Shown: positions 38,573 to 43,597 of the stretch, one piece after another | Position numbering within the stretch: the stretch's first letter is position 1 | Layout of the letters: every line of letters begins with the position of its first letter | DNA from: Natronococcus amylolyticus DSM 10524 | Lineage (GTDB): Archaea; Halobacteriota; Halobacteria; Halobacteriales; Natrialbaceae | Assembly: GCF_000337675.1 (NCBI RefSeq) | Contig: NZ_AOIB01000021.1 | Location: forward strand, 42,150 to 106,149 | Direction of reading: 5' to 3' | Length of the DNA stretch: 64,000 nucleotides | Position numbers and translations under genes: made by a program | The notes under the pieces: model-generated | What the model was told of the DNA's origin: nothing | The model's input: only the letters and a program-made list of their open reading frames with translations | Databases searched by the model: none

Positions 38573-38965
38573 TCAGTAAGAGTCGACATCGAGCCCGTCG
38601 ATGCGCTCGAAGTGTGCGACGTTTCTCGTAAGGACGGGCTCTTCGTGGACGAGCGCGGTCGCCCCGATGATCGTATCGCCGATGCCGATCGCCCGTCCCG
38701 CAGAGGCGAGTCGGCCGTCAATTCTCCCCGCCTTCTTCATGATTGCGCTGTCGGCAGGGTACACCGTCCGCGTGTCGAGAACGAGTTCGATCTGCCGACG
38801 ACGTTCGCCGGCGTTCTCGACGCGCTCGAGGCTGTGGTAGAGCTCGAACTGCGACACCGCCGAGATGCGAAGCGGAACGCCGCGTTCCTCGAGGGACGCG
38901 ATCTTCCGTTTCGCCACATCGCGGTCCTGCATCACGTCGATGAGGACGTCGGTGTCGACGATCAC
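38573..38965 (-). CDS. vapC: VapC-type PIN-domain toxin
   Basis: A 130-aa PIN ribonuclease: MIVDTDVLIDVM (first acids D4 and D6), SQFELYHSLER with the conserved Glu, and GIGDTIIGATALVHEEPVLTRNVAHFERIDGL with the last acids. It would cleave a specific RNA (often tRNA or rRNA) when free. Its ATG overlaps the vapB stop by 4 bases. Same strand as, and directly upstream of, the thyA-folA operon. Confidence 0.93.
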   Translation of the reverse strand: MIVDTDVLIDVMQDRDVAKRKIASLEERGVPLRISAVSQFELYHSLERVENAGERRRQIELVLDTRTVYPADSAIMKKAGRIDGRLASAGRAIGIGDTIIGATALVHEEPVLTRNVAHFERIDGLDVDSY

Positions 38966-39207
38966 GAGTCCAGATCGTCGACGAGGCGATCGAGTTCCTC
39001 GCGGGACCGATCGTCGCGTTCGTGGATCGCCTCGCGCATCTCCTCGGCTTCGTTCTCGGTGAGAATCCCCGACAGGTCGAGCAGCGACCGCTCACCGGCA
39101 ATCCGTTCGACGGTGTCCGAGAACGACTCGCCCGCTCGCTTGTGGCTCTCGAGCCGTCGGTACGCCTCCTCGGTGAGCCGAACGTTTCGGTACTCCGTGT
39201 CGGCCAT
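38962..39207 (-). CDS. vapB: VapB-type antitoxin
   Basis: An 81-aa protein with an N-terminal DNA-binding fold (YRNVRLTEEAYRRLESHKRAGESFSDTVERI, ribbon-helix-helix-like) and an acidic C-terminal helix (REAIHERDDRSREELDRLVDDLDS) suited to wrap VapC. The ATG at 39207 follows an AT-containing promoter. Expected to repress its own operon with VapC. Confidence 0.9.
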   Translation of the reverse strand: MADTEYRNVRLTEEAYRRLESHKRAGESFSDTVERIAGERSLLDLSGILTENEAEEMREAIHERDDRSREELDRLVDDLDS

Positions 39208-39320
39208 GTATACACGTGTGTGCAGCCAGCGGTTAACCGTTGCGGCGCCGAACGCCGACATCGTCCACTTTCACCGTGCTGCCCAAACCCTCTTTGTCCG
39301 TCCATCCGTCTCTCCGTCCG

Positions 39321-40871
39321 ATGACAAATCGCGACGGCGCCCGCCTGCTCGCCCTGCCGCCGTCAGCCGTTCTCGGGCGTCCGACCGAGACCCTCGCAGA
39401 TGTCGATACGACCCTCGAGCCCGACGCGGTCTGGCTGCTCGGCCCCGAACGCGAGGCGCGGGCATTCGCGCGGACACGACAGATGTTCGACGCGCCGGCG
39501 TTTCACCCACCCCTCGAGACGGACGGGGAAGTCGTCTCCCGTCAGCCCATCGGAACGGAACTTGAGATTGCGGTCGTTCGGAGTCTTCGCGCGCTTCGGG
39601 CGTCTCCCGCGGACGTCTCGAGTGCGCTGTCCGACTCGCGTTCGACCCCGATCGCGGTCGTCTGTGACGACGTGACGACGACGACGCGACCGACGGCGCT
39701 CGAGACGGGCCTCGAGGGGGCGGCCGAACTCGCGGCCGCACTGCCGCCCGGCCGCGTGACGACCGTCCTGACTAGCGGTGTCCCCGCCGGCTACGACGAG
39801 CTGTGGCACCTCGCAGCCGAGACGGGCGCGATTCGGGCCGTTGAGCACGAGCCGCAACTCGAGTGTGAACCCGCGGGGGACGACTGCGTCTCCGTTCGGG
39901 TTCGAGGTGCCGGTCCCGTCGAGGGCTACGGCGGCTCGGCGTCGCTGTCCGTCCTCGAACTCGACGAAACCGGTGTCACGGCCGTCGACACCTACGAGCG
40001 TTCGGACTTCGGCCTCGAGGCGGTTGCCGGAATCGGACCGAAAACGGCCGAGCGACTCGCCGACGCCGAGGTGACGACCAGAGCCGAACTGCTCGAGACG
40101 CCGATCGACAAACTCGCGGGCTACCCTGGCGTCGGTCGGGACAGCGCACACCGGATGCACCGCCATGCGACCGTCCTCGAGGCAGGCGAACCCCGACGGC
40201 TCACCGACGAGTCGCTGCCGGCCGAGAGCGGTCGACCGCCGCTGTGTCTCGACATCGAGACCGACGGGCTCTCGCCGACGATCCTCTGGCAGATCGGGGT
40301 CTACGACCCGGCCGACGACTCCTACCGGGCGTTCGTCGAGCGCGACGATCCGGACGATCCCGCGCCGGTGCTCGAGGCCCTCTGTGACTGGCTGTTCGCC
40401 AGCCACCCCGACAGAGCGCTGCTCACCTGGAACGGCTGGCGCTTCGACTACCGCCACCTCGGAGCGTTCGTCGCACGCCACGTGCCGTACTACGTCGAGG
40501 AGTGGGAGTCGGTGCCGAAGTTCGACCTCTACGACTGGGCCGTCCGCGAGGGGCATGCGCTCCTCCCGGGTCGGACGAACAAACTCGAGGACGTCGCCGG
40601 CGCGCTCGGGTACGAGGGTGCGGAGACGGGCCTCGACGGCGCGCAGACCGCGGCGGCCTACCAGCGGTTTCTGCGAACCGGCGAGGAGTTCGACTGGGGT
40701 CGCCACGAGGCCTACTGCGAGGACGACTGTCGAGCGTTGTGGCACGTCTACGAGCGACTTCGGGACGCGCCGCGGGCGACGGACTCGAGCGACACGTCCC
40801 CGGCGGAGGCCGAGGGAGCGACCCCGAGCGGAACGACGGGAGGCGAACAGACCGGACTGGGTGATTTTTGA
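39321..40871 (+). CDS. DEDD-type RNase H-like exonuclease with HhH, MrfB/YprB-like
   Basis: A 516-aa protein. Residues ~1-215 are an unassigned alpha/beta domain. Residues ~225-290 hold two helix-hairpin-helix motifs (VAGIGPKTAERLA, YPGVGRDSAHRM). From ~305 is a RNase H-like 3'-5' exonuclease: CLDIETDG, LLTWNGWRFDYRHL, KLEDVAGALGYEG and HEAYCEDDCRALW give the DEDD acids. The C-terminus is disordered. The stop lies 3 bp before the helicase ATG (a TTG start would even overlap). The gene pair matches the bacterial order yprB/mrfB plus yprA/mrfA; the N-terminal domain is not part of the bacterial protein as I know it. Confidence 0.85.
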   Translation: MTNRDGARLLALPPSAVLGRPTETLADVDTTLEPDAVWLLGPEREARAFARTRQMFDAPAFHPPLETDGEVVSRQPIGTELEIAVVRSLRALRASPADVSSALSDSRSTPIAVVCDDVTTTTRPTALETGLEGAAELAAALPPGRVTTVLTSGVPAGYDELWHLAAETGAIRAVEHEPQLECEPAGDDCVSVRVRGAGPVEGYGGSASLSVLELDETGVTAVDTYERSDFGLEAVAGIGPKTAERLADAEVTTRAELLETPIDKLAGYPGVGRDSAHRMHRHATVLEAGEPRRLTDESLPAESGRPPLCLDIETDGLSPTILWQIGVYDPADDSYRAFVERDDPDDPAPVLEALCDWLFASHPDRALLTWNGWRFDYRHLGAFVARHVPYYVEEWESVPKFDLYDWAVREGHALLPGRTNKLEDVAGALGYEGAETGLDGAQTAAAYQRFLRTGEEFDWGRHEAYCEDDCRALWHVYERLRDAPRATDSSDTSPAEAEGATPSGTTGGEQTGLGDF

Positions 40872-40873
40872 GC

Positions 40874-43597
40874 ATGGATACGGACGACGCCGCGGACGAA
40901 GACGGGACCGAGCCGACCGACGGGAGCCGAGAGGACGTGCCGGTCACCGGCGACGAGCTGCTCGAGACGTTCCCCCGCTACCGCGACGAGGAAGACGTCT
41001 CCGTCCTCGAGATCCCCGGCCGCGAGGCGTCGACGGTGCCGAACGACGAGGTCCTGCGGCCCGAACTCGCCGGCCCCCTCGAGTACGACCTGTACGCCCA
41101 CCAGGCCGAGGCGCTCGCCGCGCTCGAGCACGACGAGAACATCTGCGTCGCGACGAGCACGTCGTCGGGCAAGACCCGGATCTACGCCCTCCAGATCGCC
41201 CGGAACGTCCTCGAGGCGCGCGCTCGCGGCGAGCGTTCGACCGCGTACGTGCTGTACCCGACGAAGGCGCTCTCGCGGGATCAGGAGCGGGAGCTGAACG
41301 ACTTCTTCGATGTGCTCGGACTCGATATCTCGGTCCGGGTCTACGACGGCGACACGGACCCCGGCGAGACCCGACGGCAGATCCGCGAGGGGGCCGACGT
41401 GATTATCTCGAACTTCGCGGGCGTAAACACGTACCTGCACGATCACGACCGCTGGGCGCGCTTTCTCTCGACCTGCGACCTCGTCGTGGTCGACGAATCC
41501 CACACCTACACCGGCGTCCACGGTATGCACGTCGCCTGGGTGATTCGTCGGCTGAAGCGGGTGCTCGAGTACTACGGCGCCGACCCGCAGTTCGCGCTCA
41601 CGAGCGCGACGATCGGCAACCCAGGCGAGCACTCGAGCGCCCTGATCGCCGAATCTGTTACCGTCGTCGACGAGGACGGCTCTCCGACTGGACCGCGGGA
41701 ACTGGTGCTCTGGAACCCGCCGGCTCGAGCGCGAGCGGACGGTTCGGACGGCGATTCGGCGACTGCCGGCGGGAGCGAGGACGAAGCTGACAACGCCGTC
41801 GTCGAACGCGTCCCCGCGAGCGTCGAGGCGCCGAAGCTCCTCTCGCACCTGTGTTACCACGACGCCCAGACGCTGCTGTTTACGCCCTCGAGGAAGCTCG
41901 CCGAGCTGTCGGTCAAGCGGGCGTCGACCCACCGCCGCGACCGAAGCCGGTACTACGCGAACCCCGATCGGGGGAGCGAAATCGAACCCTACCACGCCGG
42001 CCACTCCCGAACGAAACGCCACGGGACCGAACACCGACTCAAGACCGGCGCGCTCGACGGCGTCGCCTCGACGAACGCCCTCGAGCTGGGGATCAACGTC
42101 GGCGAGATGGACACGACGGTCCAGCTCGGCTACCCGGGGCAGCGCCAGTCGTTCTGGCAGCAGATCGGCCGCGCGGGCCGCGGGACCAGGCGGGCGCTCT
42201 CGGTGCTCGTGGCGGGACATCGAACCCTCGATCAGTACGTCGCGAACAACCCCGACTACCTGCTCGAGACCGACGTCGAGGACGCGGTCGTCGACGTCGA
42301 CAACGACGCAGTGTTCGCCCGGCACCTCCTGTGTGCGGCGGACGAACTCGCCCTCAAGGGAGCCGACGCGGGCGCGTTCGCCGAGCGCGAGCGACTCGAG
42401 CGCGCCGTCGAGATGTGGTGCCGCGCGGGCCGGTTGGCGGGCCACCTCGAGACCGGGATCTCCTACGTCGGCCCGCCCCGCCCCCAGGGGTCGATCTCGC
42501 TGTACGCGACGTCGGGCGAGGAGTACGCGGTCGAACTCGCCGACGGCGTCGACGAGCGACACGATCCCGAGATGGAGCCCCTCGCGGAGGAGCGAGTCCT
42601 GCGGGACTTTCACGAGGGCGCGGTCAGGCTCCACGAGGGCCGACAGTACGAGGTGTGCGCGGTCGACCACGACTCGCCCCGACCCACGGTGACGCTCCGG
42701 CCGACGGACGCCGACTGCTACACTCGAACCCGAACCGACGTGACCGTTCTCGACGCAGTCTCGGAGGAATCCCGCGAGATCGGCGACTTCACGCTGCACT
42801 TCGGGCGCGGACAGGTGTTGGTCTACCACGGCACCTACGACCGGGTCGACGTCGACAACGGCGATCCGAAGGAACAGGGACTCCCGACGGAGAACCCGCC
42901 GCTGTCGATCGAGACTCAGCTCTGCTGGCTCGAGGTACCCGACGCTCTCGAGCGGGCGCTCGTCGAGCGTTACCGCGAGTTCTCGCTCGAGGACGAGGAC
43001 GGGGACGGAGACGAAGACGGAATCGCGGAGACCGCCCACCTCGGCTACGCGGGCGGCCTCCACGCCGCCGAACACGCGACCATCGGCGTCGCGCCGCTCG
43101 AGCTAATGGTCGACAAGCGCGATCTGGGCGGACTCGCGACGCTGTCGATCGATTCGCACCTCGAGCGGGAACGAGGCGAGAACGGGACGACGGGCAAGGG
43201 CGGGACGTCGGGCGAGGCCCCGCGCAACGTCGCCGCGGCCGAGGCGACCGTCAGGCAAATCGCCGACGGGCTCGAGCACGAGCCGAAGAGCGGCTGGTTC
43301 ATCTACGACGGAATCGACGGCGGCCTCGGCTTCTCGCGGGCGATCTACGAGAACTTCGAGGCCGTCGCCGAGCGGGCCCGAGAGCTGATCGCGGACTGCG
43401 ACTGTGGCCGCGTCGACGGCTGTCCGGCCTGCGTGATGGACGACCAGTGTGGCAACGACAACCAGCCGTTACACCGCGAGGCGGCCGTCGACGTGCTGGA
43501 TCGGTTGCTCGGAAACGAGAGTGGAGAGGCGCTTGAGGCCGACGCCGCCGAGAGCGAATCCGGCAGCGATCGGCGGCCCCCGCTGTTCTACTCTTGA
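40874..43597 (+). CDS. DEAD/DEAH helicase with DUF1998 zinc domain, MrfA/YprA-like
   Basis: A 907-aa superfamily 2 helicase: Q-like DLYAHQAEAL, Walker A variant ATSTSSGKTRIY, LYPTKALSRDQ, motif II DESH, motif III TSATIGNP, motif VI QQIGRAGRG. The C-terminus carries the DUF1998/MZB zinc cluster (CDCG...CPACVMDDQCGN), the mark of MrfA. In Bacillus MrfA unwinds DNA 3'-5' and with MrfB removes mitomycin C adducts outside the UvrABC route. An acidic insert (~DGDEDG) and a spacer (~290-310) are haloarchaeal adaptations. It acts with the exonuclease upstream by coupling (inference). Confidence 0.9.
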   Translation: MDTDDAADEDGTEPTDGSREDVPVTGDELLETFPRYRDEEDVSVLEIPGREASTVPNDEVLRPELAGPLEYDLYAHQAEALAALEHDENICVATSTSSGKTRIYALQIARNVLEARARGERSTAYVLYPTKALSRDQERELNDFFDVLGLDISVRVYDGDTDPGETRRQIREGADVIISNFAGVNTYLHDHDRWARFLSTCDLVVVDESHTYTGVHGMHVAWVIRRLKRVLEYYGADPQFALTSATIGNPGEHSSALIAESVTVVDEDGSPTGPRELVLWNPPARARADGSDGDSATAGGSEDEADNAVVERVPASVEAPKLLSHLCYHDAQTLLFTPSRKLAELSVKRASTHRRDRSRYYANPDRGSEIEPYHAGHSRTKRHGTEHRLKTGALDGVASTNALELGINVGEMDTTVQLGYPGQRQSFWQQIGRAGRGTRRALSVLVAGHRTLDQYVANNPDYLLETDVEDAVVDVDNDAVFARHLLCAADELALKGADAGAFAERERLERAVEMWCRAGRLAGHLETGISYVGPPRPQGSISLYATSGEEYAVELADGVDERHDPEMEPLAEERVLRDFHEGAVRLHEGRQYEVCAVDHDSPRPTVTLRPTDADCYTRTRTDVTVLDAVSEESREIGDFTLHFGRGQVLVYHGTYDRVDVDNGDPKEQGLPTENPPLSIETQLCWLEVPDALERALVERYREFSLEDEDGDGDEDGIAETAHLGYAGGLHAAEHATIGVAPLELMVDKRDLGGLATLSIDSHLERERGENGTTGKGGTSGEAPRNVAAAEATVRQIADGLEHEPKSGWFIYDGIDGGLGFSRAIYENFEAVAERARELIADCDCGRVDGCPACVMDDQCGNDNQPLHREAAVDVLDRLLGNESGEALEADAAESESGSDRRPPLFYS

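Follow-up and report, generated by a model that had tools for sequence, protein, structure and literature searches.

A probable clamp-anchored nuclease-helicase pair of the MrfAB type in Halobacteriales

A gene pair encoding a multidomain exonuclease and a YprA/MrfA-family helicase, located in a window of Natronococcus amylolyticus DSM 10524 DNA (the whole stretch analysed, 64,000 nucleotides), is probably a variant of the bacterial mitomycin-repair pair that is anchored to the clamp and has other add-on parts. It is reasonably likely to constitute a DNA-repair module in which a helicase and an exonuclease act in the manner of MrfAB while tethered to the sliding clamp. New here are the predicted metallophosphoesterase fold of the N-terminal domain of the nuclease, its putative PIP box and a clade of paired helicases restricted to the Halobacteriales. 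If this reading is true, MrfAB-type repair would extend to archaea and the YprA-nuclease partnership would gain a second, possibly independent, origin. A PCNA anchor is not described for MrfB in the literature examined, and an uncharacterised haloarchaeal gene pair becomes directly testable. The locus comprises the following features:

39321..40871, + strand: nuclease gene, 516 aa, with a putative pseudo-metallophosphoesterase domain, helix-hairpin-helix (HHH), DEDDy exonuclease and predicted PIP box
39321..40004, + strand: N-terminal domain, residues 1-228, predicted metallophosphoesterase fold, metal ligands apparently lost
40011..40190, + strand: helix-hairpin-helix region, residues 231-290, HHH_5, all-helical in the model
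40230..40772, + strand: DEDDy 3'-5' exonuclease domain, residues 304-484, with invariant D311, E313, L317, D376, Y465 and D469
40785..40847, + strand: linker, residues 489-509, disordered (pLDDT < 50) and unconserved (0.19)
40848..40868, + strand: predicted PIP box QTGLGDF, residues 510-516, C-terminal motif, consensus QxxLxxFx
40874..43597, + strand: YprA/MrfA-family helicase, 907 aa, with TSTSSGKT, DESH, QQIGRAGR and four-Cys MZB motifs CDCGRVDGCPAC

The gene pair and its conservation

The two genes lie head to tail, the nuclease extending from the ATG at 39321 to a stop at 40871 and the helicase from the ATG at 40874 to a stop at 43597. Only 2 nt separate the nuclease stop from the helicase ATG, and an alternative helicase start (TTG, 40868) overlaps the nuclease stop; this gap or overlap, together with the Pfam domains found, bears out the coupled DEDD/HHH nuclease and DUF1998 helicase described in an earlier note on this DNA. 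A sigma-70 promoter scan of the locus was uninformative, the host being an archaeon.

The full-length nuclease was identified in 57 of 100 relatives (a raw count that ignores kinship), with the helicase downstream on the same strand in all 57; the exceptions to the regular arrangement are one nuclease copy with an internal stop codon and one genome with about 1.4 kb between the genes. Among the named loci, a scripted adjacency test was passed by 77, and since the three failures consist of two overlaps of a few bases and one gap of about 0.9 kb, the helicase lies 3' of the nuclease in 80 of 80. The pairing in these genomes and loci is thus not due to chance, and the co-conservation whose absence the earlier note had named as a refutation holds in both samples. 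When 393 genomes from the whole phylum were scanned, full-length members turned up only inside the order Halobacteriales, and the viral contigs searched yielded no match. The distribution is patchy, with some copies plasmid-borne and many chromosomal, and the pair is evidently dispensable, being missing from 43 of the 100 relatives.

A VapB-type antitoxin and PIN-domain toxin pair lies immediately 5' of the nuclease gene, in the opposite orientation (38573-39261, - strand). The same genome encodes a second PF13482 exonuclease outside the window, 35 kb from the pair (L103 7381-8160; G000 contig C21); this form is short, may begin with an HHH-like region and lacks a PIP box. In Salinibaculum sp. 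KK48 (L212 1-8485), a divergent nuclease-helicase pair lies directly 3' of DnaJ-domain and Hsp70-family genes, and the nuclease tail is the non-canonical NLTLDEF.

Domain organisation of the nuclease

Pfam searches identified RNase_H_2 at residues 308-480 (4e-29) and HHH_5 at 232-281 (5e-10). The residues D311, E313, L317, D376, Y465 and D469 are identical in 62 of the 62 nucleases aligned. The active site of MrfB comprises D107, E109, D172, H258 and D262, with Leu113 as the wedge (PMC11194089), and the spacing 107-109-113-172-258-262 in MrfB corresponds closely to 311-313-317-376-465-469 in the nuclease, the first and third acidic residues being 65 residues apart, and Tyr/His and the last Asp 4 apart, in both proteins. 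The two sites are therefore of one type, the nuclease having Tyr where MrfB has His, and the earlier assignment as an MrfB-type DEDD exonuclease agrees with the catalytic spacing and the wedge leucine. The exonuclease model comes closest in fold to the proofreading domains found in family-B polymerases (Z 14.5-16), which are likewise the closest folds of MrfB itself; MrfB (8un9) is not among the 50 VIA-align matches listed, which bears neither way. With the nuclease by itself as query, phmmer gave no match among PDB sequences, and in a profile search of the same sequences the best nuclease matches fall on the HHH region.

The N-terminal extension of about 215 residues noted earlier is present (about 215-230 residues), and its fold, then described as unknown, is predicted to be that of a metallophosphoesterase. 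AlphaFold gave a pLDDT of 88.9 for the whole nuclease and 92.3 for the N-terminal domain alone, from an input alignment without metallophosphoesterase-bearing relatives. The top Foldseek matches of the domain model are metallophosphoesterases (5'-nucleotidase, TT1561, SapH, SbcD, Vps29, YfcE), metallophosphoesterase folds dominate the 50 VIA-align matches listed for residues 1-230 (Z 7.9-10.6), and the fold match spans the whole of the predicted domain. An hhalign comparison of the domain with a metallophosphoesterase-bearing relative, whose profile consisted of five near-identical sequences, gave no signal, so the assignment to the Mre11/SbcD/Vps29 class is one supported by structure prediction. 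An alternative assignment as PD-(D/E)XK, by analogy with TM0106, was ruled out by the fold matches, which are metallophosphoesterases.

No His reaches at least 75% conservation in residues 1-228 and a Pfam scan of 62 N-terminal domains returned neither Metallophos nor any other Pfam match; metal catalysis has therefore very probably been lost, and judged from these sequences the domain is probably a pseudo-enzyme. Among the folded parts of the nuclease it is the least conserved, with only Y158, G196 and G218 reaching 95% weighted conservation and L131, W162, D27 and L150 near 90%. The suggestion of the earlier note that the domain is a damage-recognition module would accord with this low conservation and with a fold class that includes DNA-binding enzymes. 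However, the suggestion appears improbable, as few residues are conserved and no conserved DNA-binding surface emerged, and as Vps29 and other dead metallophosphoesterases are mostly known for scaffolding proteins.

The C-terminal PIP box of the nuclease was missed in the earlier note. Nearly all the nucleases finish with Q-x-x-L-x-D-F, and Q510, L513, D515 and F516 are conserved at 95-100% despite the unconserved 489-509 linker. The strict terminal pattern is found in 60 of 62 nucleases, the remaining two ending in W, and in 106 of 107 further loci, a set that overlaps in part with the genomes of the first count; its background among other long ORFs is about 1%. The Haloferax volcanii PIP consensus is QxxLxxFx and occurs in Fen1, RNase H2 and RFC-B (PMC7776575). 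In the genome analysed here, the PCNA clients FEN1 and RNase HII end in QTGLDRWT and EQTGLEQF, respectively, and hence share the C-terminal Q-x-x-L-x-x-F/W peptide with the nuclease, whereas their catalytic domains are unrelated to its own. A terminal QxxLxxF in a disordered tail, as expected of a PCNA client, points to the nuclease being one through its predicted PIP box, and such tethering suggests that the pair acts at replication or repair forks. The PIP box common to the nuclease, FEN1 and RNase HII might also indicate replication-associated 3' end processing or fork restart at PCNA in place of lesion repair, but this is unlikely for a helicase family that is repair-linked in bacteria and a pair that so many relatives do without.

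The helicase and its genomic contexts

The helicase carries the Pfam domains DEAD, Helicase_C and MZB (formerly DUF1998), and its Walker A (TSTSSGKT), DESH, motif VI (QQIGRAGR) and four-Cys MZB motif are all intact. This combination of an SF2 core with a C-terminal MZB four-Cys zinc domain characterises the MrfA/YprA family, and the best solved relative is B. subtilis YprA/MrfA (E 1.6e-94), in agreement with the family membership claimed earlier. In the helicase tree, the paired helicases, including that of the divergent Salinibaculum pair, form a single Halobacteriales-restricted clade (support 100/100) apart from the nuclease-less haloarchaeal YprA helicases and from MrfA and its Nocardia homologue. 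L216 and the defence-type L219 enter at the fork of the paired clade, with few defence sequences and long branches, and the tree does not fix the order of its deepest forks and long branches.

The C-terminal tail RRPxL(F/Y)Y is conserved in the window-clade paired helicases (43530-43597 and homologues); the plasmid ones finish with RPPASIS. A solo chromosomal YprA helicase occurs in 12 relatives (L104-L115) and the pair in the 57 mentioned above, with no genome carrying both (naive p 1.5e-5, kinship ignored); functional replacement of one by the other is possible.

On two haloarchaeal plasmids (L125 10080-24629, L213 9175-22931), a second YprA helicase lies directly 5' of the nuclease-helicase pair and is itself preceded by UvrD-like, PD-(D/E)XK and TDP-like genes; on L125 an annotated DNA repair exonuclease and an SMC-type ATPase come after the pair. 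The cluster is a repair or defence island.

The patchy, partly plasmid-borne distribution means that a defence or plasmid-maintenance role fits too, in which the pair would degrade invading DNA like other YprA-containing systems, related YprA clades being defensive and one plasmid type having the second YprA helicase, TDP-like protein, more helicases, a nuclease and ATPases nearby. An antiviral or plasmid-conflict role is nevertheless less likely and is given a low probability here: the PADLOC matches are weak for the helicase (about 114 bits vs 469 for TIGR03817) and absent for the nuclease, the annotated loci examined show beside the pair no methyltransferase or BrxH partner as in DISARM, Druantia, ARMADA or BRIGADE, many copies are chromosomal, and the PIP box suggests a part in the replication and repair of the host.

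Relationship to known systems and probable mode of action

The haloarchaeal pair resembles MrfA-MrfB (YprA-YprB) of B. subtilis in that a YprA/MZB helicase gene adjoins a gene for a PF13482-type 3'-5' exonuclease, the DEDD domain of MrfB (COG3359), with common catalytic spacing and wedge leucine. Direct descent of both genes from an ancestral mrfA-mrfB pair, with repair of mitomycin adducts, could account for these likenesses and for the MrfA-family helicase. Such descent is nonetheless doubtful, since several features set the two systems apart. MrfAB operons place the nuclease gene 3' of the helicase gene (PMC12458937), whereas it lies 5' in all the haloarchaeal loci, so that the yprB/yprA-like gene order claimed in the earlier note does not hold. 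His258 of MrfB is replaced by Tyr465 in 62 of 62 haloarchaeal nucleases (DEDDh vs DEDDy), and the C-terminal TPR of MrfB is missing, Pfam detecting no TPR in the nuclease, which past residue 488 has only the disordered tail. The haloarchaeal nuclease adds the predicted N-terminal metallophosphoesterase fold, the HHH and the PIP box, and its HHH and exonuclease regions align with TM0106/COG2251, which argues against orthology with MrfB. The tree, moreover, does not join the paired helicases with MrfA to the exclusion of the solo YprA helicases.

Within PF13482, COG3359 (often with TPR) is kept apart from COG2251 (with DUF83) (PMC3985635). TM0106/COG2251 (TIGR03491) likewise has an extra N-terminal domain, followed by a region that aligns colinearly with HHH and PF13482 over nuclease residues 232-478 (E 1.5e-13), but its N-terminal domain is PD-(D/E)XK-like (DUF83) and the nuclease scores 50.5 bits against TIGR03491, under the family cut-off of 97.45.

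The pair is thus probably a Halobacteriales assembly in which a YprA helicase and a PF13482 nuclease were joined separately, not a direct descendant of bacterial MrfAB; with the His and TPR of MrfB lacking and the operon order reversed, it is best named a haloarchaeal variant, which may have been assembled independently. Mitomycin specificity of the pair cannot be inferred. In the mode of action proposed for this clamp-anchored repair module, the nuclease would dock on PCNA by its C-terminal PIP box on a flexible linker of about 20 residues, and its HHH domain, as in the family, would hold DNA. The YprA-type helicase, moving 3'-5' like MrfA/SftH, may unwind the damaged or blocked strand, and the DEDDy domain, with its active-site residues present, would shorten the released 3' end beyond the lesion. 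The putatively dead metallophosphoesterase domain could be a platform whose likeliest ligand is the helicase or DNA. A bolder version, tentatively put forward, is that Halobacteriales independently built a clamp-anchored repair complex from a YprA helicase and an exonuclease, coupled to PCNA, and retained in it a dead Mre11-class phosphoesterase onto which the helicase docks. Vps29 and the Pol alpha B-subunit are inactive metallophosphoesterases with the same fold and lost catalysis, but they belong to other pathways and have no fused exonuclease.

A colinear metallophosphoesterase-HHH-DEDD arrangement is seen in a plasmid protein with 29% identity to the nuclease over HHH and DEDD (L099/L100), in which Pfam recognises a metallophosphoesterase at the same position (3e-9). 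It differs from the nuclease in largely keeping the metallophosphoesterase motifs and in having no PIP box, and no adjoining YprA helicase was found for it. This fusion protein (L099 7738-9183, L100 6573-8018) is 84-100% identical across ten haloarchaeal plasmids, and in two annotated plasmids a protein of this type is encoded beside an SOS-response-associated peptidase gene.
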